NCBI GenBank assembly: GCA_029860345.1
Contig: JAOUBJ010000001.1
Span: 62,001-126,000, forward strand
DNA: 64,000 nucleotides
Reading direction: 5' to 3'
DNA from: Candidatus Zixiibacteriota bacterium
Lineage (GTDB): Bacteria > Zixibacteria > MSB-5A5 > GN15 > FEB-12
The notes beneath the pieces were generated by a model, which was given only the letters and a program-made list of their open reading frames with translations, was not told the origin of the DNA and did no database searches. A program made the position numbers and the translations under genes. This document shows positions 17,727 to 43,918 of this stretch, piece after piece. The stretch's first letter is position 1. Every line of letters starts with the position of its first letter.

Positions 17727-17759
17727 TTGAAGACCTGGGTAGTAACGTAATTGGATAAC

Positions 17760-25267: not shown

Positions 25268-27697
25268 ATGCGAACCCTTGCCATCCGACCCACAATAGTC
25301 TCCTGCGCCCTTGTCGGTCTGCTGACGTTGATGCGCGCGGACCTGGCCGCCCAGACGCCGCCAATCACGACCCAGACGGGGGCTGACATTATTTTTGTCA
25401 TCGACCAATCCGGCAGTATGAGTGGCTGCACGGTACATCCGAAGTCCAACGACCCGCATGGACTTCGTGTCGATGCGTTCAATGAGCTACTGGGGCGGCT
25501 TCACGGTGGCGCCTACCGGAGCCTTATCACGGGAAATCCGGAATCGTTTCGCGTGTCGGTGATCGAATTCGGAGACTCGGCTCGCATAGGCCTCGACTGG
25601 TTCTTGATAGAAGCGGACTCTCTTATGTCGGAAGCCGACCACTCGGATGATCTGGAGAAAAGGATTAAAGGCATCCTTTCGAGCGAAACAAACCTGGGCA
25701 ACACTCATCACATCGATGCTCTTGAGACTTGCAGAAGTCAGTTTGACAAAATACTATGGGGACGTGACGGGACGCAAAACCGAACGCTGGCCCTGTTGTT
25801 CCTGACTGATGGTCAGTCCTACTCTTCCTTGCCGCAGTACTTCACCAACGGCACCTTCAGTACCGCCCGCTACCTGCGCGATCTTCGTTCCGAACTGTCG
25901 GACATAACGGATACGCTCACGGCCGGACGCAGCATCCCTCTTGATTTCGTGGTGGTGGGCTTGGCCGACTCAGCACAGGGCAGCAACAAGTGGGAACAGA
26001 GCGCCGATACCTGGCGCCGGTACTCCGACGAGGTCCACACTGTATTCGATCCCAGTGAGTTTCCGGCGACATTGGATAGCCTGGCCGCCCGACTGATTTC
26101 ATCACCCGCGAGTAACGTCAGGGATAGCATGGAGGTCCCTTGCTATACAGCCAAGGTCCGTCTCAGAGTTCGTTATAGCACTACCATGCCACAGTTTGTG
26201 TTGAAGGACCCTGACGGCAACCGCGTGTCACTGGATGCAATCCGTGTGGAAGAGAGTTCGCACCGAGAAGTATTCGATATTGTCAGACCGATGGCCGGTG
26301 TCTGGAAACTGGAAGGCAACAAGAACTCCTACCAGGTCTTGTCGGAACTCTACTATCAAAAGGTCACGCCGTTGGTGCCGTCGCTACAAAACCCCGAGGT
26401 GCCGAACCGACCGGTAACTTTCCGCTGGCAGGTGCGATCACTTGATGATTCACTCTTCCAGCCGCATCCCGGATGCAATATACACGCTTTCACACAAGTC
26501 GAAGACACCGCCGGTAATGTGGATAAGGTCGACATGAGGTACGTAGCGGCCGATCCGGGCGTCTTCGAAGGTGTGGCCGACTGGCAGCCACCGGGTTCCG
26601 GTGAATACCAGGTTCAACTGTTCGGACTTACGCCCATGAGTACCGGGCCTGACACCGTGATTTTCAAGTCAGCGGTGGTACCCATGATTATCTCCGACAA
26701 ACAGCCGCTGGCCGGCGAAGTGGTATCTCCCTCCAACGTCAAGCGGTCGATGGGTCGAGCCAAGGCTCCACTCACGATCAGGCTGAAGTCACTTGACTCC
26801 GGGCGACCGGCTCCTCCTCTGGACTCGGTTACCACCGACGCCGATAATCTGATATTCTACGAAGTCCTTTCCTCCGACGGACTTACTCGTCAGCCGCGAA
26901 CCGCCCTGAGAGGCGTGAGTGCCTCCCAACCGGGAGAGTTCACCGGTGATATCGATTTCGATTATGAAGAAACACCCAGTGATTGGTTCGGCATCACGAT
27001 GCTTGAGCGCGACAGCGTGATCGTTCGCTTTGACGTCGACCGTGGCCGCTTGAATCCTCAGTTCGGCATTTACGGTTTCGGTGACGATCCGTTTGACGGC
27101 TACGAACATTCGGTAGTCTGCCGGCGGAGTTTACTTAGCGGCGGCACCATCGCCCTCGTTCTCTTGTACTTGCTGGCAAACGTAATGATGTTGGTGTTCG
27201 ATTTCGCATGGTGGGGTCTGATGCTGGCCTGGGATTTCGTGTGCGGCCTCAAAAGACTCCGCCTCTACTACCAGAAAGACTACACCGACAGTAAGTTGTT
27301 TCGGACCATTGGTGGAATGCATCGGTATAACTTCGGAGAGGTCCGTTGGTCTGTCGTCGATAAAGTATTTGCCCTCCGGAGCCTCATTCTGCGATTCATA
27401 ATACGCACCAAGAATCTCCCGTTCCCTCAACTCCAGGCCACGACCACAGGACCTGAGTTGGAGGGGCTGACTTTGTGGCGGAGGCCTTTCAGCCAGACGG
27501 CTAACGTGCGACTTTTCCCAAAACCGGCAGTAATAGCACCGGCCGACGAAACACGCAGCGCCGACACGGTCAAACGAGAGAAAAAACGAGCCTCCGAAAA
27601 GGAGAAGCGCAGCCGAGCCAATGTCTATCAACTCGATGATCAGCGAGCGACCAAACTGCCCGGAGACTTGGGCCGATTGGGCTTGGACAAGAGATAG
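25268..27697 (+). CDS. Exported vWA protein with C-terminal membrane hairpin
   Basis: 809 aa. Signal peptide (SCALVGLLTLMRADLAAQ). The vWA domain (about 38-280) has an intact MIDAS: DQSGSM (residue about 46), the downstream Thr region (LGNTHHIDAL) and LTDGQ. Two or three beta-sandwich domains follow (about 290-600). Two closely spaced TM segments at about 625-656 and a basic cytoplasmic tail of about 150 residues end the protein. The metal-dependent ligand site should face outside the inner membrane. It is the only vWA protein of the operon with no NTPase domain attached, so it may be the shared ligand or adhesion subunit. Confidence 0.85.
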   Translation: MRTLAIRPTIVSCALVGLLTLMRADLAAQTPPITTQTGADIIFVIDQSGSMSGCTVHPKSNDPHGLRVDAFNELLGRLHGGAYRSLITGNPESFRVSVIEFGDSARIGLDWFLIEADSLMSEADHSDDLEKRIKGILSSETNLGNTHHIDALETCRSQFDKILWGRDGTQNRTLALLFLTDGQSYSSLPQYFTNGTFSTARYLRDLRSELSDITDTLTAGRSIPLDFVVVGLADSAQGSNKWEQSADTWRRYSDEVHTVFDPSEFPATLDSLAARLISSPASNVRDSMEVPCYTAKVRLRVRYSTTMPQFVLKDPDGNRVSLDAIRVEESSHREVFDIVRPMAGVWKLEGNKNSYQVLSELYYQKVTPLVPSLQNPEVPNRPVTFRWQVRSLDDSLFQPHPGCNIHAFTQVEDTAGNVDKVDMRYVAADPGVFEGVADWQPPGSGEYQVQLFGLTPMSTGPDTVIFKSAVVPMIISDKQPLAGEVVSPSNVKRSMGRAKAPLTIRLKSLDSGRPAPPLDSVTTDADNLIFYEVLSSDGLTRQPRTALRGVSASQPGEFTGDIDFDYEETPSDWFGITMLERDSVIVRFDVDRGRLNPQFGIYGFGDDPFDGYEHSVVCRRSLLSGGTIALVLLYLLANVMMLVFDFAWWGLMLAWDFVCGLKRLRLYYQKDYTDSKLFRTIGGMHRYNFGEVRWSVVDKVFALRSLILRFIIRTKNLPFPQLQATTTGPELEGLTLWRRPFSQTANVRLFPKPAVIAPADETRSADTVKREKKRASEKEKRSRANVYQLDDQRATKLPGDLGRLGLDKR

Positions 27698-27767: not shown

Positions 27768-30700
27768 ATGCAAAACCTGATCGTGGCCATCGGAGGGACC
27801 GGCGGTACTACCATTCGCAGTCTTAAGTACCGGCTGGGACTATTCAACACCAATGAGCAGGTCGACGAGATATACATCGACGCCTTGCAGAAAAAGTGGA
27901 TCGAGGCGGGCAAAGAGGGCGAAAACGACAACCAATCGGAGAACTATCGCACCCTGGGTAACTGGGATGTTTTTTCTTATGCCGAATACCAGGGCGGCGA
28001 TCTCGTCGATATCGGAAGGCTGCTCGAAACCGAGGCGGCTGGGAAAAAGTTCACGGACCGCGAGATTTATCAACGTTACGCTTACCGCTGGTTCCAGTCA
28101 CATTATTATACCAAGGTCGGTGGTAGAGCTATTCTCGAAAGCGTAACCGAAGGCGCTGGTCGCTGGCGTCAGTTCGGTCGCATGCTGGTAGATCGAAACC
28201 ACGACGTCGTGGCCAAAATGCTCCAGGAGAAAATCCGCGCCATGGAATCTACTTTCAAGGTCTTCATGGTGTTTTCCCTGGCCGGTGGAACCGGAGCCGG
28301 AGCAGCCTTCGACACCGCCATGATGCTTAGAAAAATAGCCCAGAAGGAGAACAAACATCCCGTTATATATGCCTTCATAGTGATGGGACAGGCGTTCCGT
28401 TTGGAGGATCCATCGCCTACCTACGCCGCCCTTCGGGAACTCAGCAGGCTGAGCGATGTCGACGCCAATAACCATTATGCCACCACCTACAAGGCATCGA
28501 TGGAGAATGCCACGGTGTTGACTCGACCCCTCTTCGATTCCAAGTTCATAATCGACTTCACCCAGCGCTTCAAAGGACTCACCGACGACGAACTTCGTTA
28601 TCTGGGCCTCTACCCTGCGCTGGCCGATATGATCGAGTTGCTGATCCAACCGGAAGCCAGTAATTACCTGTATCAGGCGGCGGCCAACTGGCCCAAGGAC
28701 GTCGACACCGCCAAGCAGGTGAAGGACAAGGACCAGTTTACGGGTGGCGCGCCCGCCGGTATTGCATACCAAATGCTGAAAAAGAAACTGCATTCGGCCG
28801 AGGACTGGTTCGTTACCTACAAAACACAGAGAATATTCTTCCCCAAAGACATATACCTGGATATCTCGCGGGACAAGTTGGTCATTCAATTCATCGATGA
28901 TCTCTTCCCTCGCGGCGGGGGCAACGTGCTGCAGGAGAATTATGGCTATGACGGCAAAGAGATAACAGACACGGAACTACTCAAAGAGGCAACAAACCAA
29001 CGTTGCTACTCGATTTTGGAGGACTGGAATCCGGGTTTCCTGGCCAGTGCGGTTGGGGCGAAATCCACCACCAGGAAACCGTTCTCTGAGCCCAAACTGA
29101 ATGAGCGTTTTGAAGGCTACCCTGCCGACGAACTGGTACGCAATCTATTTGTCAGCGGCTCTTCGGAGGCCGAAGATGCCATTACGGATATCGACAGGCT
29201 AAGCCTTACCGACCGTGCCGGAGGCAGTACCGTTAGCAAGCTGGACGATCTCGGTACCTTTACCATGAGCCTGGAACAAACGCGGGAAGAGATTCATACC
29301 GAGATAGACAAGAAATTGGCGCTGACGGATACTTACAGCAAGAACCTGATTCGAAAGGTTATGGCCGATCATGCGCTGAACCTATTGAATCGCCCCCACA
29401 AGAAGGGTTGTCTTGGCTTTGCTCGCGAGGTATTTCGTCACCTCGCGGATGATTACTTGCAGGACATCGCCAACCGTATCGAGGAGCGCGAGACCTCAAT
29501 TAAGAAACGCGAAGGTGGCTTAAAGGCTCAGTGCCGCGAACTCAGCACTCGCATGCGAACGGAATTCAAGAAGGCCAAACAAAAGCAACTGCTGGTTCTC
29601 GAAGACGAGCAACTCGAGGAACTCAAGCGCCGGAAAGCTAACGAGAAACTTATGGAGTCTATCACCTTCGCCATCGCCGAAGCGAATTACTGGAAGGACT
29701 TGCTGGCTTCGTGGGGAGAAGAGCTAACCGTAAACTCCAAAGGCTCCATGCGGGTCGATGCCTCAGAGTCTATCGAGCGTTCGGAAAGAGTGTTGAAGGA
29801 GTTGGCCATGTCATCGGGTATCAGTCTCGGACTACCCAAACATGAATACGACGCGGACAGTCAGGGTGGGTCCGAAGGCAAATCGTTCGATACCGTTCAC
29901 ACAAACATGGGCGGTTTCCAGGAATCTGTTCACGAACTCCTGGAGCCACAGCGGTTGATTGACGGATGGAAGCTCAACATTAACTGGCACGCCGAAATCC
30001 CTGAGAAGCTGCCCAGCGAACACGTCATTGGGCAGATCAAACCGATGCTCTCGCTGGCCGCAATGGAGCAGCAACCGGATAACATTAGCGATGTATCAGG
30101 ACTGAAAGAGAGTCTCAACGAGGTGATCAGCAGGGAGGCGGAAACGAAGCTGAAGGGTGTCGACCTGTTCACTTATCTCACCGAGTGGGTGCCAAAAGAA
30201 TCCGGCGACACGGACATGCAGGTGGCCAACCTGGTGGGTCAATTCTTCCATGGCTGCAAACACTATCTGGAGTTTAATGAGAACGTTGGGCTTTGGCATT
30301 CCTACCTGGCTTATAACCAACGCGGCCGCGACGTAGGTGATTTCGTTGCCGAGATGGGCACCTATTCGATTGGACCGGACGAATCCAGACCGACGGCTAT
30401 TCCCAATTACGGCGACGGCAACAGTCTCGTTTTCGTGCACTTCGTAATCGGTCTCACTATTGAGGATGCCCCGTCACTCAAAGTGCCCCGCCAGAAGTAC
30501 CTGGGCCGGCTGAACAATGCCATCGGCGATAGTGGGCGCGAGCACCACCTGGTCGGAGGCGTCCTTAGCAATCATATCTTCCCCGAGGAGCAGGCAATGC
30601 TAAGGTTTGAGATCGAAGCTGTCGGCCCCCAACTCGGCGGCCGCGATTTTGACACCCAGGACTTTATCCCGCTGGAGCTGTCGCCGCTCTTCGGTGACCT

Positions 30701-31280
30701 GGACCGCATGGATCTGTTCGCCAGACTCTACGCCGTCGGGCTCATCCGGACAGATGAATACCGAGGTGAGGACTATTTCTATTTCCGCCGAGGTCTTGAG
30801 GTCGATCCGCAGGTCTCGCCCAATGACGTGTTCATACTGTCGCAAAGCGCCAGTCTGGTCCACGCTGCTCGCTCGTTCGTGACCAATGAACCGAACATAC
30901 GAACGGAAGCGGTCTTCTCGCGGCTACCCGACATGGACGAGATGACCGACTGTCTCTACCGATGCATCGACAAAGACTACCTTGAAAAAGATGAGAATTT
31001 CCGTGAGGGAATTCAGAAATCAAATCCAGAGAAAGCAATGTGGCCAGAAGCTGCACTTATGAACCTGCTGGACTGGACCATTGATGACCTGGAGAAACTC
31101 GAGGGCGAAAAGCTCAAGGAAACTTTCAAGGTACCATACGGTGTGAAACGGGAATCGTCCGCCAAAGAACAGCTTCGCGACGTCACGGTGCTCTTCTTTA
31201 AGCGTGCAGTACGCCAGGCTGAGCGCAGGCGGGAAAAGAAGCGCTCGACGCGCGCGTCTGAGGGACGGACGTTCCGGTAA
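27768..31280 (+). CDS. Soluble tubulin-like GTPase (Tubulin_2-type)
   Basis: 1170 aa, led by a strong GAGGAGAT Shine-Dalgarno. The N-terminal Rossmann-like start LIVAIGGTGGTTIRSLKYRL carries the T1 loop. The T4 signature of the tubulin/FtsZ superfamily appears as SLAGGTGAGAA (about 168-178; FtsZ has GGGTGTG). This pattern is that of the Pfam 'tubulin like' family (PF13809). A long charged coiled coil (about 570-640) and a further domain of about 500 residues follow; there is no TM segment. Likely a GTP-binding, possibly polymer-forming cytosolic protein. It is followed directly by two membrane-bound paralogues of the same GTPase domain. Confidence 0.85.
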   Translation: MQNLIVAIGGTGGTTIRSLKYRLGLFNTNEQVDEIYIDALQKKWIEAGKEGENDNQSENYRTLGNWDVFSYAEYQGGDLVDIGRLLETEAAGKKFTDREIYQRYAYRWFQSHYYTKVGGRAILESVTEGAGRWRQFGRMLVDRNHDVVAKMLQEKIRAMESTFKVFMVFSLAGGTGAGAAFDTAMMLRKIAQKENKHPVIYAFIVMGQAFRLEDPSPTYAALRELSRLSDVDANNHYATTYKASMENATVLTRPLFDSKFIIDFTQRFKGLTDDELRYLGLYPALADMIELLIQPEASNYLYQAAANWPKDVDTAKQVKDKDQFTGGAPAGIAYQMLKKKLHSAEDWFVTYKTQRIFFPKDIYLDISRDKLVIQFIDDLFPRGGGNVLQENYGYDGKEITDTELLKEATNQRCYSILEDWNPGFLASAVGAKSTTRKPFSEPKLNERFEGYPADELVRNLFVSGSSEAEDAITDIDRLSLTDRAGGSTVSKLDDLGTFTMSLEQTREEIHTEIDKKLALTDTYSKNLIRKVMADHALNLLNRPHKKGCLGFAREVFRHLADDYLQDIANRIEERETSIKKREGGLKAQCRELSTRMRTEFKKAKQKQLLVLEDEQLEELKRRKANEKLMESITFAIAEANYWKDLLASWGEELTVNSKGSMRVDASESIERSERVLKELAMSSGISLGLPKHEYDADSQGGSEGKSFDTVHTNMGGFQESVHELLEPQRLIDGWKLNINWHAEIPEKLPSEHVIGQIKPMLSLAAMEQQPDNISDVSGLKESLNEVISREAETKLKGVDLFTYLTEWVPKESGDTDMQVANLVGQFFHGCKHYLEFNENVGLWHSYLAYNQRGRDVGDFVAEMGTYSIGPDESRPTAIPNYGDGNSLVFVHFVIGLTIEDAPSLKVPRQKYLGRLNNAIGDSGREHHLVGGVLSNHIFPEEQAMLRFEIEAVGPQLGGRDFDTQDFIPLELSPLFGDLDRMDLFARLYAVGLIRTDEYRGEDYFYFRRGLEVDPQVSPNDVFILSQSASLVHAARSFVTNEPNIRTEAVFSRLPDMDEMTDCLYRCIDKDYLEKDENFREGIQKSNPEKAMWPEAALMNLLDWTIDDLEKLEGEKLKETFKVPYGVKRESSAKEQLRDVTVLFFKRAVRQAERRREKKRSTRASEGRTFR

Positions 31281-31339: not shown

Positions 31340-34300
31340 ATGCCGAGGAAAAAGAGCATTCTAAGCAGCAACTGGTTCACCCTGATGGTGCTACTGATTG
31401 CCCCGGCCATAATTTTATTGGCCGCGTGGTTTTACGTGGGGTACCTCAATCAAGGTAAGACCGGCCAACTGTACCGCACCCTTGACGCCGAAGTAGCCTG
31501 GACGGGAGAACATTTGCAGGCTTCCCTTCACTTTTTCGGCGGTGAAACTCTCGACTCGGTTTATCACGTCAAGGGACGGGCAGCTGATGTCCTGGTCTGC
31601 CTGGATCGCTCTTACTCGATGGGTTTTCCCGAGGGTCCGGCGTCCCCGCTGGCCAAAGGAATTAGCGCCACGGTGCGGTTGTGCGGAATGTTAGGCGGTG
31701 CCGGCGCCAGAGTGGGTCTTATGACATTTGACGACGTTGCCGAGCAGGTAGCTCCTCTAACCGAAGAACCTGAGCAAATCCGTGATGCCGCGCAGGATGT
31801 CAAGGTCCGTGGCGGAACGGATATCGCTGTGGCTTTGTTGGCGGCTCTGGACTTGTTTGCCGCTGACAATACCACAACTGACCGAGACAAATACCTGGTC
31901 GTGATAAGCGACTTTTGTGCCCCGAACCCCGGCGCCGGCCAAGCTGCAATACGTAGATTGGCTTCGGCTTCCGTGCAAACGATTGGCATAGGTGTTGGTT
32001 CGGAAATCTGTGATGAGTACCTTAACGAGGTATTCGAAGTGTCTATCATGGCGGCCAATGTCTCCGATCTGGACAGCATTTTCAACAAGGTGGTGATGGA
32101 GTCCCAGATTCTGCCGGTGTATGCCGAACGATTCGACCTTCAGGAGCGGATTGATGTCCGAGATTTCGAAGTTTGGCAGCCGAAAGAAGAGATTCCGTAC
32201 TTGATGATGGATTCAGATTTGCCAACCGGCCGGCTGAGCTTTTGGATACCCGCACTCTTTGAGGCAACCAATACTTTCAATTACGGCGTGGCTCCAAGGA
32301 CGGTGGGCATTCAGCGACTGGCCCTGGAACCCGCCGTGGGGACAATGGTCGGCGGAACCGGGACACAGATACCCGTGTCCAGCGATCTGCGACCTTATCT
32401 GCTCGTGATTTCCTGGTGGCTTCTGTTTCTGATGTGGCTACCGGCCCTGATCTATCTGGCCTTTATGATATCTCATCGGGAGAACCGGTTATACGATCCA
32501 ACACTCAGGCGTGGAAGGCAGGTGTACCCCGATCCTCAAACATATCCCCGGCGTCAAGTGCCGGAGATGGACCCGGTGCCGACACTGTTCGTTGGAGTCG
32601 GCGGCAAGGGCCGGGAGACCTTGGTCCATGTAAAGCATATCGTGTCTGAGTGGTTTGAAGAATCTCAGAAAGTTCCATTCGAGTACGTCGGCCTGGACAC
32701 CGATCGCCGAGAGGAGGCAAACCCGAGATTCTGTGACCAAGCATTGAACGAGCAGGAGACTCTCATCTTCCCCGACGATGACAATCTTAACGCCTTTTTC
32801 GATGATGTGTCGGACAGACCCGACGATTTCAACGATATCACATCATGGGCCGGAATAGCCGAACTGCGCAGGAAAGGTGGGCAGGCCACCGACATCAAAG
32901 CAGGAACGCACGGCAACCGACGAATAGGCCGGTTGGCTTACCTTAGGGCGATCAATCAGCCCGATTCTACCATCGACCAGCTTCGCGAGAAAGTAACTCA
33001 ATGGGCTCTCAGCCACCGGGACACCGGCGAACAGCCGGTGGTGATTGTGGCCGGTTCAGGCTACGGGGGTACTTCGTCGGGAATCATCGCAGATGTTGCT
33101 CATCAGATTCGTGTGGGACTGGCCGAGGCCGGATGCCGCGACCGGGAGGAACAAGACTTGGTTACGACTGACTCGGTGCCCATGTATTTATATTTGACCT
33201 ATCAAGGCTGGTCTCCTCAGCAATCCCAGAACGCCGAAGCAATGCTAACTGAGCTTGAGCGCTACCAAGTCGGCGGCCACCGCGACCTGAGAAGCCCTCT
33301 TAAGATTGGCGCCGAGGAAACACCCGAGGGCATAGTACACCGACCGTTATTTGATCGAATTCATTTGATGGATCCTGAGAGCAGCGTAGCCGAGATGGCT
33401 GACTCCATGTTCCATTATTGTGAGCGCTCTCTGTCGAGTGCCTTGATAAACTCCATTGACGACGCCCATTGGCGGATTCATCGCGCCTCCCGTCAGGACG
33501 GACGCATGCGCATCAATATGCCCTCTACTATTTCACTGAGGTTTCCGCGCGGTCGCATCATACACAACCTGGCTGTCCAGGCCATTCGGGAACTACTGGA
33601 GACCCAGTTAATAGGCTTCCTGGTTCAGCGAAGCGCCGATGGTAGCCTGACAGCCGAGTTCACAGATCGGTTTGGTGATCAGCACGAACGTACCATTAAC
33701 GAGTGGATGGGTATCAGCACCACCCTCGATCAGAGCAAAGAGGGTCCCATGGGGAGTCTCTCCGGGTTTTATCAAGTTCTTACCGCCGTTACCTCGGGAC
33801 GATCACCCACAGCTCCGATGGACTCCAAGTCACCGGATGAGGAAGTGATCAAAACCAAGTTGGCCCGTGATCTGACCGAGTGGCTTCGGATAGATCCCTC
33901 GGTTAAGGACCCGGACCTGGTGATCAAGTCACGATGCGGCAAGCTGGGAGACCTGAATGGTGTGCTGCACGCGGCGGCCACGGAACTTAAGAGGATTCTT
34001 GAGAGCCCGGCCCAGAAGGATTCGGAAGGGGCGGCTTTTCTTAAGACCGTGCGACGGGTTGTAGAAAGCGCATCGGCAGGTCTTGATTTCTGGAAAAAGA
34101 CGCTGTTGCACAATAGCTCCTTTGAGCGCGGTCATGTGGTTCGTCCGGGGGCGGGGTTGGCCTTGTATCTGGATGAGCGAATGGTCGAGTTGAAGCAGCA
34201 GGACACCGACCTGCACAAGCTCACCCCGCGACGTGTGTACCTAATGGGCGGTGATGAGTGTCCGGAAGACATCCGACGAGATAAGCTATACGAGCGCTAT

Positions 34301-35344
34301 TTGTTCAAACCACTGCTATCAAACGCCCAACTGGCCCGATTGTTTCGGTGGCACTTTGACGCGGGGCTACGCTTGGCCCTGGAATTCAGATCGAAACCGG
34401 ATCGTGCACTGACTGTCAAGTCTGAATCTTCGAGTAAAGCCGCGGCAGAAAAGGCCGGCACATTGTGGGAGGCGATACATGAATACATCCTCACACACCG
34501 CGAGTGCCGACGCATCAGAGAGATTACCCTGGCCAATGCCTGTCCGGACCTGGCCGGGAGCCTGAAAAAGGCCCTCGGCAATGTGGAAGCGCAGCATCTG
34601 CACGTTCTGTACTCATATCCCAGAGTCACCGAGTGGCCGGAGTTCGAACAGTTGGAAGGCAACCTGAGAAAGCAACTCTTCGGCGGTGTCAATTACCAGA
34701 GTGCTTTAACCAACAACCCTCTGATGATATCCATACACTACGTTGCACCCGACCGACTTTGGTTTACGGAAATATCGGATCGACAGGGCGGCGCCAACTG
34801 GCTAAGGCACCCTGATGATCAGTCAATGCTCAATTTGCCTTTTGTTCAGCCGCCGGAGGCTTATGCAGCCAACTGGAACCGACTTTATGCCCGCACCGAG
34901 GGTAGCCATCAGCCATACCCCGCGGCACCATACCGGGCTTTGGCCGAGAATTACGAGAATCTCCGACGGGTCGTTTTCATGGACGCCATGGGAATGATCA
35001 AACTGATTGAAGATGATAACCTACTGAGAGCGTGGCGCCTTGTAACCGATGATCGGACATTCAACTTGAATCCGCCCGGCTATCCCGACAGGAGAGACGC
35101 TCTGTATCAGCTTGTCGCCGACCGTCGCGATGACGATGGAAGCGATCTGCGACCTGAACTTGAGGCATCCGAACGCCGTTGGGACACGATCCCTGCGGAG
35201 CGGAAACTGGACATGCTGGATAACTACATCAAAAGGTTGAGTCAGACTTTCGATGACGCTGATACAGAAAAACAGGTGAATATGATGCTTCGCTTGATCG
35301 CCTCCGTTCAGCGTGAGATCATCAGCCAGCAGGTGAGGACTTAG
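31340..35344 (+). CDS. TM-vWA-TM-tubulin-like GTPase fusion, copy A
   Basis: 1334 aa. The basic N terminus (MPRKK) and TM1 (about 12-36) place the vWA domain outside. Its MIDAS is complete: DRSYS (about 90), RGGTD and VVISDF. TM2 (about 352-377) leads to a cytoplasmic tubulin-like domain with T1 loop LFVGVGGKGRETL (about 414) and a T4-like loop AGSGYGGTSSGI (about 567), somewhat diverged from GGTGTG. About 700 more residues follow. AGAGGA precedes the start. The protein joins an exterior metal-binding adhesion/assembly domain to an interior cytoskeletal GTPase fold, with the same layout as the next gene. Confidence 0.87.
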   Translation: MPRKKSILSSNWFTLMVLLIAPAIILLAAWFYVGYLNQGKTGQLYRTLDAEVAWTGEHLQASLHFFGGETLDSVYHVKGRAADVLVCLDRSYSMGFPEGPASPLAKGISATVRLCGMLGGAGARVGLMTFDDVAEQVAPLTEEPEQIRDAAQDVKVRGGTDIAVALLAALDLFAADNTTTDRDKYLVVISDFCAPNPGAGQAAIRRLASASVQTIGIGVGSEICDEYLNEVFEVSIMAANVSDLDSIFNKVVMESQILPVYAERFDLQERIDVRDFEVWQPKEEIPYLMMDSDLPTGRLSFWIPALFEATNTFNYGVAPRTVGIQRLALEPAVGTMVGGTGTQIPVSSDLRPYLLVISWWLLFLMWLPALIYLAFMISHRENRLYDPTLRRGRQVYPDPQTYPRRQVPEMDPVPTLFVGVGGKGRETLVHVKHIVSEWFEESQKVPFEYVGLDTDRREEANPRFCDQALNEQETLIFPDDDNLNAFFDDVSDRPDDFNDITSWAGIAELRRKGGQATDIKAGTHGNRRIGRLAYLRAINQPDSTIDQLREKVTQWALSHRDTGEQPVVIVAGSGYGGTSSGIIADVAHQIRVGLAEAGCRDREEQDLVTTDSVPMYLYLTYQGWSPQQSQNAEAMLTELERYQVGGHRDLRSPLKIGAEETPEGIVHRPLFDRIHLMDPESSVAEMADSMFHYCERSLSSALINSIDDAHWRIHRASRQDGRMRINMPSTISLRFPRGRIIHNLAVQAIRELLETQLIGFLVQRSADGSLTAEFTDRFGDQHERTINEWMGISTTLDQSKEGPMGSLSGFYQVLTAVTSGRSPTAPMDSKSPDEEVIKTKLARDLTEWLRIDPSVKDPDLVIKSRCGKLGDLNGVLHAAATELKRILESPAQKDSEGAAFLKTVRRVVESASAGLDFWKKTLLHNSSFERGHVVRPGAGLALYLDERMVELKQQDTDLHKLTPRRVYLMGGDECPEDIRRDKLYERYLFKPLLSNAQLARLFRWHFDAGLRLALEFRSKPDRALTVKSESSSKAAAEKAGTLWEAIHEYILTHRECRRIREITLANACPDLAGSLKKALGNVEAQHLHVLYSYPRVTEWPEFEQLEGNLRKQLFGGVNYQSALTNNPLMISIHYVAPDRLWFTEISDRQGGANWLRHPDDQSMLNLPFVQPPEAYAANWNRLYARTEGSHQPYPAAPYRALAENYENLRRVVFMDAMGMIKLIEDDNLLRAWRLVTDDRTFNLNPPGYPDRRDALYQLVADRRDDDGSDLRPELEASERRWDTIPAERKLDMLDNYIKRLSQTFDDADTEKQVNMMLRLIASVQREIISQQVRT

Positions 35345-35345
35345 A

Positions 35346-38300
35346 ATGAGCTACTTTGAAATATTGTTGCTGGCCCTGCTGATCGCTTACATAGTGGTGG
35401 GATTCGGTCTGTTGATGTGGTCCACACGATCTCAAAAACGCTTCGCCAAAGATCTGTTTGTCACTCGGCGCTCCAACAGACGAATGGTAGCCAAAGGTGG
35501 GCGTTTCGAGGTCGCACTCAATGCCCGGGCTGAGGGGCACCAACGGCGCGAGGTACAGCCTTTGCGAATAGTTTTGGTTGTTGACCGGTCCAGCAGTATG
35601 ATGTCGGAAAAAGTGGCCGGAAGTCCATTACACATTGCCGTTCGCTCCGTCATTGAATTCGCCCGCCAACTCGATCTCACCAGACACCGGATCGGACTGG
35701 TGCAGTTTGACACTTCGGCGGAGATACTGTGTGAATTGACCGGGAGTGCACCGTTGGTAGCAGCTGCGGCCAAGCGAATCAGGGGAGGCGGGGGGACCGA
35801 TGCCTTGCCCGGCATAGAGGACGCCGCAGCGCTCTTGGGATACAGCGACACAGAATCCGCGTCCGGCATCGATGGTACCAATCGCGACGTTGTCATTCTG
35901 CTTACCGACGGGGAAACCTACAACGAAGACAAGATCGCCAAACTGTGTGAATCTCTAAAGACCAAGAACGGCTTGCGCATTATTACCATCGGATTGGGGT
36001 CCGAAGTCAACTCCGATTTTCTGGCAAGCATAGCCAGCCCGTCTCCGGGTTCGTCAGATGAGTCGGGTCCTGCCGAATACCACCAGGTCCTCGATGTTTC
36101 CCAATTGGTTTCGGTGTATCGCTCACTGGCCGTACAAATCGCGGCATCAGTCGGCGGCGGAGGTACCCTTGAAGAGACCATCAGTCGGCGAAAATTCACT
36201 TACGTGGGCTTCGGAGAAGATCATGAACCGGTGAAGCATCTTTCTGAGGACGGCACGGTGCAGTGGATATTCCCCGCAATCAATGAAGCCCCGCAGGAAG
36301 TGCGGTATTACATCAAAGGTAACCGAGTGGGTTGGCATCGCATTGTCGAACGGAGCGCCTCGCTCGATTACTTTTCGATACCCGACAACGTGCACCATAG
36401 GTATGACCCGCGGCTGCCGAAATATGGCCAGGCCGAGGATGACAAGGAAGTCCATGAAGAACGATGCCGCTCCAACCGTAATCCACACATATTGGTGACC
36501 CCCAGATTCGGTCCGGCGATCCTCTGGGCCATCTTTCTGAACCCGCTCTTTTGGATTTTGTGGTCGGCCTTCTCCCGGCTGCACAAACGCCGGTCAGGCA
36601 AGGCTGTAAGCGAATCCGAGAGTTCCTTGACTCCTCCGCCACTTAAGCAACCAAAGCCAATGAAACTTGTCCCGCCTCAGGCTCTGGAGTGCCCTCCCCT
36701 TCGTCCGACTATGGTGGTTGGGCTGGGCAAGAGCGGACGTCACGTACTCAGTGCCTACAAGGCCATGATTGCCGACACCTGCGGAGGCACCTATCCTTCG
36801 GACAAAATCAAGTTGCTCCAGATTGATACTGACATACGCACTGATGACCGGGAGTTTGATTTCGCCGGCTCCTCACTGACCGATGATGAATCGGCAGACC
36901 TTTCCGCCGATGTTTTCGAGTTGCATCAGCGACTGCTGGTTAAGAAGGAGCCTCACCTTCGCTGGTATATTGCGTCGCGGTTGGCCGGTTTGCCGCGGGA
37001 AGTATTCAATACTGCCGGCGGTGTACACCGCGTAAGACAGGTTGCTCGACTGGCCCTGTTCCAACATCTGAACGATCCCGAGGCGGTGATACGACAGCGC
37101 TTGCAGAGTGCGATCGAATTCTTGTCCGAATTCCTTCTAGACGGCAAGACCGCCCAGGTGTTCATCGTCGGGTCAAGCTCGGGCGGCACTGGCTCTGCCA
37201 TCGCTCATGATCTTGCTTACCTGATCCGACGTGGTCTCCAACTTCGACTGCCCAAAGGGCGCGAACACGCCCAGACCATCGGTTTCTTCCTTGGCAACAC
37301 CTGCTTTGCACCGCATAGCCGCAACATTGCCACCTACCAGAAGAATTCTCGCTCTCTGCTGGAGGAAGCCGGTCGCTTTATGACCAATACTGAGTTGCCC
37401 CTGATGATAGATTACGGAACCGCAGTTTCGGACATCACCGGGTGCCCCGAAGGGACCGGTCCGGTAGCGTCCGACTCCACGGAGAACGCTGCAAGTGCGC
37501 CTGGTAGCATATATGACCAGGTATACGTAGTCGATCCGGCGCCGGAGGGATATCGAGACTCGGCCGGTATGACCGGTACCGTTGTCGCAGAGGACGGCCA
37601 CTACCCTGCCCTGGCGGACATCCTGTCTCACTACTCGCTTGAAGACACAGGTTTCCAAAAGTTCATCGCCAAAAGTATCTGGGAAAGAAACGCTGATCGA
37701 ACCGTTAAAGAGCAAAAAGGACACATAAGTAACATTAATGCCCGGGCTGTTCGTTTCCCAATCGGCTTGACCTCCACGTGGCTTGCCCACCGTTTTGTCC
37801 ACGAGTGGTTCATTGGCAGGTCACTTTGGGCGGAGCAAATAGCCGGTGAATTCGTACCGGCCCAGGACCTTCCGAAGGATGGTTTGAGCCTTGATTCACT
37901 GCTGCGTGATGACAACCTGGGTCCATCATCGGACCCACCTATGTTGTTCGACATCCTGGACGAGTTAGCCGAGGATCTTCGGTCGGGCTGGGACAGGAAC
38001 TGGAGTACCGCATTTCGCCGTATTCAGGTCAATGAGGGTGTTGATTACGGCCGGGACTATGTTCGAAAGCAGTCGAAGATTGCGTTCTTTTCTGTCTTGA
38101 GTTGGATGCTCCGTTCGCTGAACGACTCCGGCCACGACGATTCGCAGGAAATCAATGGAGCTCTGCCGAAGACCATAAATCGGCTGACCGAGTTCCGCGA
38201 TCTAACCGAGAAGGCCGCTCTGAACCTGAGCCGACTGCCGATAGGCAATCTCACCGAAACAGGCGCCGAATCGTTTCTTCATTGGAAAGCGCGCATTGTC

Positions 38301-39542
38301 GAAGAGTTGTTGGATAGCTACTATCAAGTGGCCGATACTTGTCTCCGCATCACCCGACGTTGGTACCGATGCCTGCTGGGTGTGTCGCCGGAGAACGAGA
38401 AGAACCGCGAGGCAGGCGTCTGCCAGCGTATTGCGCATTCGCTGCGCTCCGATGAAAACGACCTGAGTTTCCTTAAGACTATTCGCAGCGTTAAGTACCA
38501 GACGGACGAACTGTTCCGCGATGATTTGTACAATCGATATCTGAAGCCGTACCTCGACAACGGCGGTTTCCGCTCCCGGCTTAGATGGCAGTTGGATGCC
38601 CTGGCACTGAAACAACTCAGCGCCGGCATGTCCAGTGGAGCCGGCAGCTTTGGTACTGATCGGATAAACGCGCGAATACTGAAGTTGGCCGTACTGGTCG
38701 ACGATGAGCAACCACCGGTTGAGTTTTCGGACCCTGTCAAGGACGCCGAAGGTATCTGCCAAGCTCTGAGCGATGTCGCCAAGAAGCTGAACCAAGCCTA
38801 TGAATACTGCCGTGCCTTTGCAGATAATGGCGCCGACGACCGACGAGAGCACCTGTCCAGAACCGACCTGATCATTCAGGCAACGCCCGAAGGAGGCGCC
38901 ACCTTCGACCGCAAGCGATTGGTGTTGGACTCGGAAGTGTTCAAGGACGTGGTAGTGGATGCCATAGCCGATCGATTCCCCTTGTATCCAATGCCGATGT
39001 GTCGAACGGTCATAGACTGTGAGATAGGTATCCCCATCGATCGCGCTGTATCCTGGGCAACCGAAGCCATACCGGACATTGCCAACTATGTATTCCTTGA
39101 AGAGCAGTTCTCAACTGTGTTGCAGGGACTTATTGATAGCCAGCTCCACGAACGGTTCGACGATTTTTCGGTGCGTCTGCGCCAGTACTTTAACTACTTC
39201 GACCGCTTGCAGGAGTTCTTGTATCTCGCTCTGAAGCGCGACATCCGCCCCACCGTCAACCCGAGCGGTCAGGAATTACTGGCTTGGTGTCACGGCGATC
39301 AGACCGACTACCTTACCGACACTGGCACCGGTCTATTGGAGGGGATGAGTAGCTTCATAGGTAATCGACACAGGTTCTCGGAAGTTGAGATAGATCGTAA
39401 TGAGTTCCTGCGTGTTATCAGCGCCCATCATTCAACGCCGGCCGTGGACTTTCGACAATTGCCGAAACCGATGCCGAAGGAGATCGGTTATCTCCTGAAG
39501 CTGATCGAGAAATCCAACGGGTATCTCGACATTCGCATTTAG
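35346..39542 (+). CDS. TM-vWA-TM-tubulin-like GTPase fusion, copy B
   Basis: 1398 aa, starting one base after the previous stop with AGGA upstream. TM1 (about 4-26) is followed by a basic stretch, which makes the orientation of the vWA domain less certain than in copy A. The MIDAS is complete: DRSSS (about 80), GGGTD and LTDGE. TM2 at about 390-410 (GPAILWAIFLNPLFWILW) is followed by KRR. The tubulin-like domain has T1 MVVGLGKSGRHVL (about 456) and T4 GSSSGGTGSAIA (about 607). It is the last gene of the nine-gene operon; a new promoter follows. Confidence 0.87.
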   Translation: MSYFEILLLALLIAYIVVGFGLLMWSTRSQKRFAKDLFVTRRSNRRMVAKGGRFEVALNARAEGHQRREVQPLRIVLVVDRSSSMMSEKVAGSPLHIAVRSVIEFARQLDLTRHRIGLVQFDTSAEILCELTGSAPLVAAAAKRIRGGGGTDALPGIEDAAALLGYSDTESASGIDGTNRDVVILLTDGETYNEDKIAKLCESLKTKNGLRIITIGLGSEVNSDFLASIASPSPGSSDESGPAEYHQVLDVSQLVSVYRSLAVQIAASVGGGGTLEETISRRKFTYVGFGEDHEPVKHLSEDGTVQWIFPAINEAPQEVRYYIKGNRVGWHRIVERSASLDYFSIPDNVHHRYDPRLPKYGQAEDDKEVHEERCRSNRNPHILVTPRFGPAILWAIFLNPLFWILWSAFSRLHKRRSGKAVSESESSLTPPPLKQPKPMKLVPPQALECPPLRPTMVVGLGKSGRHVLSAYKAMIADTCGGTYPSDKIKLLQIDTDIRTDDREFDFAGSSLTDDESADLSADVFELHQRLLVKKEPHLRWYIASRLAGLPREVFNTAGGVHRVRQVARLALFQHLNDPEAVIRQRLQSAIEFLSEFLLDGKTAQVFIVGSSSGGTGSAIAHDLAYLIRRGLQLRLPKGREHAQTIGFFLGNTCFAPHSRNIATYQKNSRSLLEEAGRFMTNTELPLMIDYGTAVSDITGCPEGTGPVASDSTENAASAPGSIYDQVYVVDPAPEGYRDSAGMTGTVVAEDGHYPALADILSHYSLEDTGFQKFIAKSIWERNADRTVKEQKGHISNINARAVRFPIGLTSTWLAHRFVHEWFIGRSLWAEQIAGEFVPAQDLPKDGLSLDSLLRDDNLGPSSDPPMLFDILDELAEDLRSGWDRNWSTAFRRIQVNEGVDYGRDYVRKQSKIAFFSVLSWMLRSLNDSGHDDSQEINGALPKTINRLTEFRDLTEKAALNLSRLPIGNLTETGAESFLHWKARIVEELLDSYYQVADTCLRITRRWYRCLLGVSPENEKNREAGVCQRIAHSLRSDENDLSFLKTIRSVKYQTDELFRDDLYNRYLKPYLDNGGFRSRLRWQLDALALKQLSAGMSSGAGSFGTDRINARILKLAVLVDDEQPPVEFSDPVKDAEGICQALSDVAKKLNQAYEYCRAFADNGADDRREHLSRTDLIIQATPEGGATFDRKRLVLDSEVFKDVVVDAIADRFPLYPMPMCRTVIDCEIGIPIDRAVSWATEAIPDIANYVFLEEQFSTVLQGLIDSQLHERFDDFSVRLRQYFNYFDRLQEFLYLALKRDIRPTVNPSGQELLAWCHGDQTDYLTDTGTGLLEGMSSFIGNRHRFSEVEIDRNEFLRVISAHHSTPAVDFRQLPKPMPKEIGYLLKLIEKSNGYLDIRI

Positions 39543-39758: not shown

Positions 39759-39870
39759 ATGCGGCGCGAACGAACCATAGCGGTCCTACTGATCCTGTGC
39801 GTCGACCGATAACAGACCTACTGACTACTACCTTCTCGTCGACGCCACCGATCCAGGCGATAGCCTGAAC
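39759..39870 (+). other. N-terminal coding segment in another frame (apparent frameshift)
   Basis: ATG 39759, with AGAGG 10 bases upstream and a promoter before it, encodes MRRERTIAVLLILCVDR and then stops at 39810-39812. The +1 frame is open from 39793 and reads SCASTDNRPTDYYLLVDATD straight into the next gene, with no start codon before ATG 39871. So the original start of that gene is probably 39759, and a one-base shift between about 39790 and 39810 separates its signal peptide or lipobox from the body. Confidence 0.5.
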
Positions 39871-40695
39871 ATGAACTTGATAGCCAATGTCACGAATCGT
39901 GTGCTGAGTGCGGCGACCAAAACGGGCGACCATGTGACGGTCACTGCCATTGGTGAATATCCCCAAACGGTATTCAGCCGTACAATAGGACCCCGAACGG
40001 ATAGGAAGAAACTGATCCAGGAGTTGCAACCAAGCATCGACTCGTCACGAACTAGAGAGGGGTCGTTCGAATCTGAAATCCTCTGGAGCACTCTTGTAAT
40101 GACTGCTTTTGACCGGATGCTGGTTCACTCATTAACTGCCCACATGGGAGATTCGCATCGTAACGTACTGATTCTCCTCTGTCGCCCGCAGACCGGCTCG
40201 AACTTGCGCAAAGAGGCAATCGAATACATGGCCGGCAGCTTGACCGATCCCGACAGTTGGCAGATTCACGTTTTCGGAGTTCCAAAAAACGCTCTCGGGG
40301 TCAGCCCCATCGCTTTCACTTTTTACGATGCCTATACACCCAAAGAGATCGAATCGTCAATAGGCCAGATGTCCACATTCTTGCCACCGGTACCGGTCGA
40401 GGAGTCTAGATCGGATGTGGCATCAAGGTCCGGCAACAGCCCAACGAAACTGCAGAGTGTCGCGCTGAATGGAATTCGCGTGGGGAAGGTAATAGCTCTT
40501 GCGGTGTTCGCCTATAGCCTATTCGGTCTCCTCGGTCGCAAACGTTGGCGAGCAGCGGCTGGCATGCTGAAAGCACGAAGAGAGAAGATCAAAGAGCACA
40601 AGGATGTACCGACATCGCCCTCCCCGCAAGCCACTAAGCCTCCGACAACATCGCCGCCGACCTCTCCACCGACGGCCGACGACCCAACCAGATGA
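39871..40695 (+). CDS. vWA-like exported protein with one TM (5' end frameshifted)
   Basis: 274 aa as an intact frame from ATG 39871, which lacks a Shine-Dalgarno; see the upstream segment for the likely true start. The body (YYLLVDATDPG, then GDHVTVTAIGEYPQTV and HRNVLILLCRPQTG) has the strand-helix rhythm of a vWA domain, but the MIDAS Ser/Thr residues are not conserved. One TM (about 203-220, VGKVIALAVFAYSLFGLLG), a basic segment and a Pro/Thr-rich tail end it. It leads the unit that contains the phosphoesterase and kinases. The stop overlaps the next start as ATGA. Confidence 0.65.
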   Translation: MNLIANVTNRVLSAATKTGDHVTVTAIGEYPQTVFSRTIGPRTDRKKLIQELQPSIDSSRTREGSFESEILWSTLVMTAFDRMLVHSLTAHMGDSHRNVLILLCRPQTGSNLRKEAIEYMAGSLTDPDSWQIHVFGVPKNALGVSPIAFTFYDAYTPKEIESSIGQMSTFLPPVPVEESRSDVASRSGNSPTKLQSVALNGIRVGKVIALAVFAYSLFGLLGRKRWRAAAGMLKARREKIKEHKDVPTSPSPQATKPPTTSPPTSPPTADDPTR

Positions 40696-41394: not shown

Positions 41395-42123
41395 GTGATA
41401 GCTATTCTGGGTGACATACACGCGAATGTGGAGGCGCTTCGGGCTGTGATAGCCCACTGTGAATCGTCCGGGGTCGAACAGTATTACTCGGTGGGCGATG
41501 TAATCGGCTACTACGCCAACCCGTGCGAGACAATCGACTTGTTGAATGAACAAAAAGCAAGGGCAGTGCTGGGCAATCACGAGTTGTACGTACAGAAGAA
41601 CGTTGATTTCGATCACATCAGCCCCACCGCGGCGGCGGCAATCGAGTGGACACGGAAGACCCTTCGGGCGGAAGATCGAGCGTACATAGAGCAATTGCCC
41701 TGGTCAATCAGAGTCGACGGTCCCGTACCGTTTCGCGTCGTTCACGCCTCTCTGATGTACCCCTTCGACTGGACCTACGTGATTGATCTCAACCGGGCTG
41801 TCAACGCCCTTGCCGTCCAGGATACGCCCGTGTGCTTCTATGGACACACACACCAGCCGATGGCTTTTTCGGTCGGAACGCGAACGACGGCCGGTTACTT
41901 CGATAAGATCAAGCTGCGCGAGGGTTCCAGGTATCTGATTAATGTCGGTAGTGTCGGTCAGCCAAGGAACGGCGATACCGGGGCTCATGTGGTAATATTC
42001 GATCCGAAAAAGCGGGAGGTGCGTTTGGAACTGATACCCTATGATCCTGCGCCGACGATTAAAGGTCTGCGGTCAGCGGGTCTCCCGTCCGAGTTGTCGG
42101 ATTACTTGAGTGGCCGGGGTTGA
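41395..42123 (+). CDS. Calcineurin-like metallophosphoesterase
   Basis: 242 aa, GTG start. All metal-binding blocks of the family are present: GDIHAN, GDVIGYYANP, GNHE, VHAS and GHTHQP. The length and block spacing match the YfcE/MJ0936 and bacterial diadenosine/phosphoprotein phosphatase group. Its stop lies 5 bases before the start of a Ser/Thr kinase gene, followed by two further kinase-fold genes. It may therefore be the phosphatase that opposes these kinases; that role is inferred from context, since small-molecule phosphodiesterases share the same motifs. Confidence 0.85.
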   Translation: MIAILGDIHANVEALRAVIAHCESSGVEQYYSVGDVIGYYANPCETIDLLNEQKARAVLGNHELYVQKNVDFDHISPTAAAAIEWTRKTLRAEDRAYIEQLPWSIRVDGPVPFRVVHASLMYPFDWTYVIDLNRAVNALAVQDTPVCFYGHTHQPMAFSVGTRTTAGYFDKIKLREGSRYLINVGSVGQPRNGDTGAHVVIFDPKKREVRLELIPYDPAPTIKGLRSAGLPSELSDYLSGRG

Positions 42124-42127
42124 GTTG

Positions 42128-43918
42128 ATGGATGAGAACAAACATAGCGCCGCCGAGTTGTTCTATCAGCCGGATCAACTATTGCTCTATGCCAAGAGAG
42201 TGCTGCCCCGGAGATTTGAACTGCATGAGACCTTACTTGACACCCAGAACGGGGTCTTCGTATCGGCTTTCGATCATTCGGAAAACCGCGCTATAACACT
42301 CAAGCTGTTCCCGGAGATATTGGCCTCCGACAAAGATAGCGCCGGCAGGATTCTTACCGAGGTCCAACGTTCACTTCGCCTGTCTCACGCAAACACCTGG
42401 AGCGTTCGGGTGTTGGATCGGGTGGACGACCTGCAATTCTTGTGTCTGGACCGGATAGATGGAAAGCCCCTGCTGACATTCATCGGCACCAATCCCAAAC
42501 CCAAGTTTGCCGAAACCGTTCTGGTGCAATGTCTATTGGCCCTCTGTTATGCCCACAAACAGAAAGTACTGCACGGCGACATACGTCCGGCGTCGATCCT
42601 GATCGACACTGATAATAAAGTAACCCTTATCGATTTTGGTGTATCACGAACAGTCACGGAAATGCTCACTCGGGTTACCAACATCACACCCTCTACCGGA
42701 CACTTGTATTCCGCTCCCGAATTCATACGGGGTAAGTCCTACAGCCGAGCATCTGAGTTTTACTCGCTGGCGTGCATCATGTATGAGTTGTTAACGGGCG
42801 ATCCACCCTTTCTGGTGGGCAACCTGGCCCACCAGCATATACACGAAAACCCACAGCCGCTGGACAAGTCGGTAGTTTCACGTCATCCCTTCGTGTCCCA
42901 ATTCATTGATCTGGGTTTGATCAAGGACCCGGATAAACGCATCGACGGATTGCACGACATGCTCACGCAGGTTGCCAGTAATACTCCCCGCGCAACAGCC
43001 AGCCTGGCAGGATTCAAGAAGGGTGTGAGGTCCAAGCGTGCCAAACGCCTACTCCCCCGTCTGTCCTTGCTTCTCGTTCCGATATTCCTGATCGCGGTTG
43101 CCATCTGGTTCGCTGTCAATGCGTATGAAGAACACCGACTGACGGAATTGCGTCGATCACTGGGGCTCCAGTTTGCTATCGTGGCTCGGGGCGAGTTCGA
43201 GATGGGTGATCGGCAGGCCGCTTCGGACGCCAACAATCCATGGCACCCGGTATCCATCACGCGGGAGTTTTATATCAGCATGCACGAAACGACCATAGGT
43301 CAATACATGGCATTTCTCAACAATCGCCACGAAGGTGTGAGCGTCGGTAAGCCCGATGTCCCGACCACGGTGGTGCCTGTGGGTGACCGATATGTAGTCT
43401 CAGCCGGCACCGACCCGAGCCTGCCGGTGACCGAGATCGGGTGGGAATCGGCCATGGACTATTGCCGATGGTTGTCCGGACTTTCTGCGGATTCGCTTTA
43501 CATCCTGCCGACCGAAGCGCAATGGGAGTTTGCTGCGCGCGACGGATCGGTACGAAAGTACCCCCAAGGAGATGAACCACCCGAGATGAACTGCGCCGGT
43601 ACCGGTCCGATGCCGGTGGGAAGGCACAAGCATACACGTGAGCTCTACAATATCTGTGCCAACGTCTCGGAATGGGTCTTCGACTTTTACGATCCCGATT
43701 ATTTTCGTTCTCCAGAAAACAGTGTCGATCCGATCGGGCCGCCGAGCGGGAATTCCCACGTTGTCAGAGGTGGGTCCTACCTGGATTCGGCAGCCATGTG
43801 TGAAATTCACGTTCGAAGGAGTGGTGCCCAGGTGAAGCCGCAGGCTCTTGGATTCCGAGTAATCAGAGTTCCCAGAGCGGACACTCTACATTTTGAAGAC
43901 TTTCTGAAAGGAATGTGA
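42128..43918 (+). CDS. Ser/Thr kinase - TM - formylglycine-generating-enzyme-like fusion
   Basis: About 596 aa from ATG 42128 (an in-frame GTG at 42110 is less likely). Kinase domain (about 30-285): the ATP-binding Lys is in ITLKLF, the catalytic loop reads HGDIRPAS instead of HRDLKPxN, and DFG is intact (LIDFGVS). The loss of the loop Lys and Asn makes activity uncertain. TM at about 308-330. The exported part (about 345-595) is an FGE-sulfatase (SUMF1-like) domain: RGEFEMGD, HETTIGQYMAFLN, LPTEAQWEFAARDG, NVSEWVFDFYD, VVRGGSY and GFRVIRV. Such domains often act in binding rather than catalysis. Coupled to the next gene by GTGA overlap. Confidence 0.88.
   Translation: MDENKHSAAELFYQPDQLLLYAKRVLPRRFELHETLLDTQNGVFVSAFDHSENRAITLKLFPEILASDKDSAGRILTEVQRSLRLSHANTWSVRVLDRVDDLQFLCLDRIDGKPLLTFIGTNPKPKFAETVLVQCLLALCYAHKQKVLHGDIRPASILIDTDNKVTLIDFGVSRTVTEMLTRVTNITPSTGHLYSAPEFIRGKSYSRASEFYSLACIMYELLTGDPPFLVGNLAHQHIHENPQPLDKSVVSRHPFVSQFIDLGLIKDPDKRIDGLHDMLTQVASNTPRATASLAGFKKGVRSKRAKRLLPRLSLLLVPIFLIAVAIWFAVNAYEEHRLTELRRSLGLQFAIVARGEFEMGDRQAASDANNPWHPVSITREFYISMHETTIGQYMAFLNNRHEGVSVGKPDVPTTVVPVGDRYVVSAGTDPSLPVTEIGWESAMDYCRWLSGLSADSLYILPTEAQWEFAARDGSVRKYPQGDEPPEMNCAGTGPMPVGRHKHTRELYNICANVSEWVFDFYDPDYFRSPENSVDPIGPPSGNSHVVRGGSYLDSAAMCEIHVRRSGAQVKPQALGFRVIRVPRADTLHFEDFLKGM

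Follow-up and report, generated by a model that had tools for sequence, protein, structure and literature searches.

What is a tubulin-like domain for when it is built into a membrane protein, and why would a bacterium keep two such proteins next to a soluble copy? The question is raised by a 64,000-nucleotide stretch of a Candidatus Zixiibacteriota genome (contig JAOUBJ010000001.1, positions 62,001 to 126,000 of the forward strand), called here the window. Three adjacent genes in it, which we name C, A and B, encode a soluble tubulin-like protein and two chains that join transmembrane (TM) segments, a von Willebrand factor A (vWA) domain and a tubulin-like domain. FtsZ, CetZ and TubZ are soluble proteins; FtsZ depends on other proteins, among them FtsA and ZipA, to anchor it at the membrane. 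To our knowledge, the known bacterial tubulin relatives reach the membrane via separate anchor proteins.

Architecture of the three tubulin-like proteins

27768-31280, plus strand: C, a soluble tubulin-like protein of 1170 amino acids (aa) with no TM segment and Tubulin_2 at residues 4-373
31340-35344, plus strand: A, with the order TM1-vWA-TM2-tubulin-like, 1334 aa, an intact open reading frame (ORF)
35346-39542, plus strand: B, with the order TM1-vWA-weak second hydrophobic segment-tubulin-like, 1398 aa, an intact ORF

A and B are separated by a single base, C lies 5' of A, and all three genes stand within one plus-strand gene run. Pfam assigns to A a VWA_2 domain at residues 84-192 (E 1.3e-14) and a Tubulin_2 domain at 416-682 (E 2.2e-23, 83.5 bits), and to B the same two domains at 75-190 (E 4e-13) and 457-748 (E 7.9e-21, 75.1 bits). 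C matches Tubulin_2 with E 4.3e-25 and 89 bits and, below threshold, also Tubulin PF00091 (5.9e-5). All three proteins exceed the curated cut-off of Tubulin_2 (PF13809), which is 27 bits, and they are the only Tubulin_2 proteins in the 4.76-Mb host genome. The metal ion-dependent adhesion site (MIDAS) of the vWA domain is intact both in A (residues 84-243; strings DRSYS, GGTD and SDF) and in B (residues 75-233; DRSSS, GGGTD and TDG). The nucleotide loops of C are canonical (T1 GGTGG, within AIGGTGG; T4 AGGTGAG), while A has an altered T1 (GVGGKG) and an altered T4 (GYGGTSSG), followed by a long helical C-terminal region, and B has an altered T1 (GLGKSG) with T4 SSGGTGSA. A and B are homologous across the vWA and tubulin domains (BLASTP E 3e-12, A 84-679 against B 75-731), so the fusion arose before the A/B duplication. 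The domain architecture of the three proteins is far beyond chance. An earlier note, made from the sequence alone, had described two tandem vWA-TM-tubulin-like fusions beside a soluble paralogue; intact ORFs, Pfam domains and hydropathy all agree with that description, and the MIDAS and T-loop strings that it quoted are correct.

The fold was modelled with AlphaFold2 from 37-row family alignments, in which A and C shared most rows. The models reached a predicted local distance difference test score (pLDDT) of 58 and a predicted TM-score (pTM) of 0.55 for residues 1-530 of C, and 63 and 0.57 for A from about residue 398. The nucleotide half was well modelled, with block means mostly of 75-94 around S1/H1 and S4/T4/H5, and the rest of both models is helical and of low confidence. 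In Foldseek comparisons with the PDB, all 50 listed matches of C (best E 1.8e-5) and all 50 of A (best E 2.8e-4) belong to the FtsZ, CetZ, TubZ/PhuZ or tubulin families; the TM-scores by target length, about 0.3-0.49, support the superfamily level and not the details. According to these models, A and C carry a tubulin-type Rossmann nucleotide domain. The tubulin-superfamily domains that had been claimed for all three proteins are thus borne out by the Tubulin_2 matches and, for C and A, by fold matches, among which no different Rossmann fold appeared. Matches of C to malic enzymes in a phmmer search of the PDB were judged to be due to chance.

Tubulin_2 is the family described as FtsZ-like 1 (FtsZl1) by Makarova and Koonin 2010 (PMC2875224). 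Most of its members are soluble and carry the FtsZ-like domain at the N-terminus; four Planctomycetes proteins have an N-terminal kinase, and one archaeal protein has a TM region. Neither T6-H7 nor the tubulin C-terminal domain is recognisable in the members, and they are associated with separate vWA genes, kinases and OmpA-type proteins in systems that were proposed in 2010 to act in membrane remodelling (PMC2875224). No tested function for the family was found in the literature searched. With scores above the Tubulin_2 cut-off and with vWA and kinase genes as neighbours, the A/B/C system belongs with the FtsZl1/vWA systems, and its architecture is unusual among them. The FtsZ-like domain is N-terminal in C, a position that is usual in the family and not defining, whereas in both A and B it comes after TM-vWA-TM within a single chain, and these two fusions lie next to a third copy. 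The signature T4 of FtsZl1, GGTG(S/A)G, reads GGTGAG in C, GGTSSG in A and GGTGSA in B. Chains of the vWA-TM-tubulin type are not mentioned in the FtsZl1 description (PMC2875224), and full-text searches of open papers, which do not extend to subscription journals and preprints, retrieved none that mentions them. A and C have the same GTPase fold as FtsZ, CetZ and TubZ by predicted structure; A and B differ from those proteins in carrying a membrane anchor and an additional binding domain within the chain, and the tubulin C-terminal domain was not found.

Relatives in other phyla and divergence of the loops

Three further genes of the same run are needed for the comparison with other genomes:

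12082-17190, plus strand: vWA-TM-ASKHA protein, with a signal peptide, a vWA-like domain, a TM segment at 446-464 and a C-terminal domain at about 1030-1600 of the Hsp70/actin-like type (acetate and sugar kinases/Hsc70/actin, ASKHA)
24366-25256, plus strand: membrane-anchored CAP-domain (PF00188) protein, with an orthologue in the Desulfobacterota operon described below
25268-27697, plus strand: vWA-TM protein, with a signal peptide, an extracytoplasmic vWA with DQSGS, a C-terminal TM segment and a cytoplasmic tail

Fusions were sought in about 1,150 genomes of four phyla, with Planctomycetes, Myxococcota and archaea outside the sample. The queries were A/B profiles for Acidobacteriota and for two class searches and Tubulin_2 for the others; E-values are per genome, and several genomes are metagenome assemblies. 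One Desulfobacterota genome, G905, holds a minus-strand operon formed by CAP (302 aa), vWA-TM (779), C (1152), A (about 1277), B (1347), two small genes, one of them with an OmpA domain, and vWA-TM-ASKHA (1623). Its first five genes, from CAP to B, stand in the same order as in the window, and the window proteins match theirs by phmmer with E 1.4e-11 for CAP, 1.2e-87 for vWA-TM, 4.8e-63 for C, 7.8e-85 for A, 3e-134 for B and 1.5e-53 for the ASKHA protein. The fusions are absent from the other 16 genomes of the same class, as searched with the A/B profile. Among 297 Desulfobacterota genomes, G905 holds the only full-length match to the ASKHA protein; in the genomes sampled, therefore, vWA-TM-ASKHA is found only together with the vWA-TM-tubulin pair.

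Three Chloroflexota genomes (G1194, G1147 and G794) also encode a vWA-TM-tubulin fusion, in each case beside a soluble tubulin. In G1194, C is followed by a clean 1390-aa vWA-TM-tubulin gene and then by a kinase-like gene. In the fusion of G1147, CAP, vWA, a PD40 propeller and Tubulin_2 share a single 2263-aa chain, an argument for their acting together. The G794 locus (L172) has vWA-TM, C and, behind an assembly gap, a gene for vWA, TM, a propeller-like domain, TM and tubulin. A 3513-aa ORF there (L172 5299-15840), with two tubulin domains, was rejected as one protein since it spans a block of N in the assembly, across which the frame is artificial; it probably joins two genes, and only the part after the gap, from vWA to tubulin, was used. 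In L089 and other Caldilineaceae loci (L046-L094), a canonical Tubulin_2 gene is followed by a second, highly divergent tubulin-like gene with one TM segment in its middle, and a vWA gene lies upstream. Two-tubulin sets may be common in Chloroflexota.

The distribution is patchy. Only 4 of the 132 genomes of the Zixibacteria phylum have any Tubulin_2, and the fusions occur only in the genome of the window. Among the 180 tubulin-like ORFs of the loci first gathered, a vWA domain is present only in those of the window, G905 and G794; that set does not include the fusions of G1194 and G1147, which came to light in a later search. No fusion was seen in 396 Acidobacteriota genomes with the A/B profile. 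Viral sequences scanned with A and with the A/B alignment gave no relatives, genome contigs scanned with the A/B tubulin alignment gave no match, and neither did the plasmid scan; the FtsZl1 alignment retrieved 80 loci from genome contigs, mostly of cyanobacteria and Chloroflexota, none of them vWA-fused.

The loops separate the two kinds of protein. Within the system, all six soluble copies (window C and those of G905, G794, G1194, G1157 and L131) have canonical loops, with T1 GxGGTG and T4 GGTG(S/A), whereas none of the seven fusions (A, B, G905A, G905B, G794, G1147 and G1194) keeps both, a split with a probability of 1/1716 under random labelling if relatedness is ignored. Besides A and B, the T1/T4 pairs are GIGGCG/GGTSSG in G905A, GFGHTG/GGCSSG in G905B, GTGGTG/GGM-SG in G794, GVGGTG/GGM-SG in G1147 and GLGRFG/DQVGSG in G1194. 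In a tree of the tubulin domains, the window proteins pair with their Desulfobacterota orthologues with supports of 99 for A, 90 for B and 100 for C (Shimodaira-Hasegawa-like approximate likelihood ratio test, SH-aLRT). A branch with SH-aLRT 97 places all the system tubulins, together with the canonical-looking L131 of Chloroflexota, apart from the other sampled FtsZl1 sequences. Since A, B and C each pair with their own orthologue, the trio is older than the split of the two operons, and its maintenance as one canonical and two diverged copies is the pattern expected from an obligate hetero-complex. The contrast between one canonical and two diverged copies, which the earlier note had seen in the window alone, is therefore upheld by the loop comparison, by its persistence in other phyla and by the orthologue pairs in the tree.

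Membrane topology, the Hsp70/actin-like protein and neighbouring genes

By hydropathy, the TM segments of A lie near residues 15-33 and 353-371, and those of B near 6-24 and 388-406, the second one of B being weak. In A and its orthologue, TM1 is preceded by 3-5 positive residues and followed by 1-2, with positives also after TM2; as a rule-based inference, this pattern predicts that the vWA domain is extracytoplasmic and the tubulin domain cytoplasmic. B and its orthologue have no positive residue before TM1 and eight in the 20 residues after it, with net charges of +7 and +6 just after TM1 and -1 and 0 before it, respectively. By the same kind of rule this predicts an N-out orientation and suggests a cytoplasmic vWA. 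The second hydrophobic segment of B holds a central Asn-Pro and may be re-entrant or peripheral. If the charge-based topology is right, A and B are not equivalent as sensors. The earlier proposal of an external ligand thus fits A better than B, whose charge pattern runs against it.

The ASKHA protein is a third vWA-TM-fusion design in the gene run of A and B, one that had been missed before. Its MIDAS is degenerate (DRSGV in the window, DQSGT in the orthologue). Both homologues conserve VDFGTSAIA, YDxGAGTLDxSLR, SESDA, GAGN and GRTAxxPGL, among which VDFGTSAIA, YDxGAGTLDxSLR and GRTAxxPGL represent the phosphate-1, phosphate-2 and adenosine motifs of the Hsp70/actin superfamily. With hhalign, the domain matches E. 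coli DnaK with E 5e-5 and 67% probability over 72 columns; in profile comparison, FtsA gave E 0.0024 and the FtsZ control 0.37. The best PDB profile matches are nearly all Hsp70, and weak (E 0.03), and a single-sequence Pfam search gave no significant match. On the basis of motifs and profiles, we assign this C-terminal domain to the Hsp70/actin (ASKHA) superfamily.

The other genes near A, B and C are the following:

17160-17726 and 17751-20903, plus strand: two genes of the same run, both starting with a signal peptide-like segment and holding one more TM segment
20999-24313, plus strand: large cytoplasmic protein with no recognisable domain and no TM segment
39871-40695, plus strand: ORF with a C-terminal TM segment, 3' of B, no family match
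41395-42123, plus strand: calcineurin-like metallophosphoesterase; the same type was read by eye in the Chloroflexota locus L172
42110-47310, plus strand: three protein kinase genes, the one at 42110 with a C-terminal FGE-sulfatase domain, those at 43915 and 45643 with coiled coils

Large proteins without TM segments are also found near the corresponding operons in other genomes; homology between them and the 20999-24313 protein was looked for and not detected. Just before the 39871 ORF, in another frame, there is a signal-peptide-like start (MRRERTIAVLLILCV); the natural start of this gene (39760-40695) is probably upstream, and a frameshift or an assembly error may be involved. The first kinase gene (42110-43918) encodes kinase, TM segment and formylglycine-generating-enzyme-like (FGE-sulfatase) domain in a single chain. 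Kinase genes also lie 3' of the fusion gene in some Chloroflexota loci. The GC content of the gene run, overall and at third codon positions (GC3), matches that of the flanks, and a recent horizontal transfer was rejected on this ground.

Further away, a MotA/TolQ/ExbB-family gene (47405-48700, minus strand) is convergent with the kinase genes. Two small single-TM proteins near it (50268-50747 and 50744-51346, minus strand), with no Pfam match, could be ExbD/MotB-like partners. A large two-TM protein (51425-54895, minus strand) contains a 24-base tandem repeat in 12 copies (52790-53080) that encodes TDPSTGQQ-type repeats. The window also holds a protein kinase with TM, TPR repeats and a C-terminal thioredoxin/AhpC-like segment (56256-58553), a 1427-aa chain with protein kinase, TPR, GAF, sigma-54 activator and Fis-type helix-turn-helix domains (6146-10429, minus strand), and a tRNA gene (55129-55202, minus strand), the sole Rfam match.

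A proposed mechanism and its rivals

We think, tentatively and with rather less than even confidence, that the operon encodes a membrane-spanning, receptor-coupled tubulin scaffold, in which C assembles on A and B or is switched by them. C would be the nucleotide-competent soluble tubulin of FtsZl1 type, probably binding GTP and possibly assembling, and A and B would be its diverged partners, non-catalytic and tethered to the membrane, serving it as template, cap or gate. Their proposed role as templates, caps or regulatory subunits is drawn from their degenerate nucleotide loops and from their tie to a MIDAS vWA and to the membrane. The vWA of A would face the envelope and probably form the envelope-binding side together with the CAP protein and the stand-alone vWA-TM protein, the vWA of B would probably stay cytoplasmic, and binding at the ectodomain would control the assembly of C. 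The vWA-TM-ASKHA protein may bring an Hsp70/actin-like ATPase to the same complex, whose state the kinases and the phosphoesterase may set. The picture of transmembrane tubulins, with vWA domains wired within one chain to membrane-bound subunits of tubulin fold (A and a modified B) and of actin/Hsp70 fold, so that contact with the envelope nucleates or caps the soluble tubulin, seems unlikely to us.

Several observations weigh against the receptor-coupled scaffold. GTP binding and filaments are predictions here. Neither the tubulin C-terminal domain nor T7 was identified in the models of A and C, which have no strands after H7 and a low pLDDT there, so assembly may differ or be absent; two conserved family columns after H7, an N (34/36) and a D/E (31/36), are present in C and missing from A, and are candidate T7 counterparts only. 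The T4 of B (GGTGSA) is identical to that of one soluble copy, so that its degeneracy lies mainly in T1 (GKSG). A single origin of A, B and the three Chloroflexota fusions does not resolve in the tree (25). Some relatives depart from the scheme: two other Chloroflexota genomes, whose loci look simpler, have a TM-tubulin without vWA (G1152) and a very divergent second tubulin-like protein without TM and vWA (G614). On balance, the interpretation of the earlier note, in which membrane-bound subunits cap or regulate the soluble protein, is partly supported.

The same gap in T7 and the C-terminal domain is what speaks for a non-filamentous signalling complex, with C, A and B as a fixed hetero-oligomer in which the tubulin folds serve only as GTP switch or adaptor and the kinases give the output. 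Degenerate loops in all the fusions, long helical C-terminal regions and the kinases that adjoin the locus here and in Chloroflexota also fit such a complex, which we nevertheless consider rather unlikely: C keeps both nucleotide loops, and AlphaFold2 models the C-terminal part with too little confidence to rule out a divergent assembly surface. The gene neighbourhood could instead point to an envelope or membrane remodelling machine, with tubulins that move or shape the membrane while vWA and CAP ectodomains hold the cell wall or the outer membrane. Genes for vWA, kinase and OmpA proteins are linked to the FtsZl1 family, an OmpA-domain gene accompanies CAP in the Desulfobacterota operon, and at least four proteins here have predicted ectodomains; still, the patchy spread of Tubulin_2 in the phylum argues against a core envelope function, and we find this explanation quite improbable.

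That sporadic distribution would suit a conflict system, with infection as the trigger of assembly. The nearest parallel comes from Kaur et al. 2020 (PMC7159879), who describe predicted conflict systems of the GAP1-N2 DO-GTPase class that unite tubulin homologues, HSP70 and membrane vWA proteins, with two tubulin genes in the Firmicutes versions (PMC7159879). The window likewise has tubulin, Hsp70/actin-like and extracytoplasmic vWA components in one locus; vWA, TM and tubulin or ASKHA form single chains here, whereas they are separate genes there. Neither of the two defining components, DO-GTPase and GAP1, was detected: the 27 window proteins scanned gave no GTPase or GAP1-type match with a Pfam library that includes the ternary-complex-associated domain family (TCAD9), and the one Walker A string in 16 operon and neighbouring proteins is spurious. 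Seven proteins had no match to the PADLOC defence profiles, no known effector was seen, and the uniform GC and GC3 give no sign of a recent island. We therefore hold a role against invaders to be very doubtful.

Returning to the proposed scaffold, what sets the system apart is a tubulin domain with its own membrane segments and vWA, with degenerate loops and beside an intact soluble copy, across phyla. That the trio recurs in a second phylum, and simpler versions of it in a third, suggests a machine whose tubulin scaffold is under the control of membrane sensors. The FtsZl1 family gains a compact set of testable parts, and in the same gene run an ectodomain of this kind is joined to an Hsp70/actin-like domain. 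If C assembles and A and B control it, the system would provide a direct link from the outside to a bacterial tubulin scaffold on the inside, and would represent a natural system of capping subunits.

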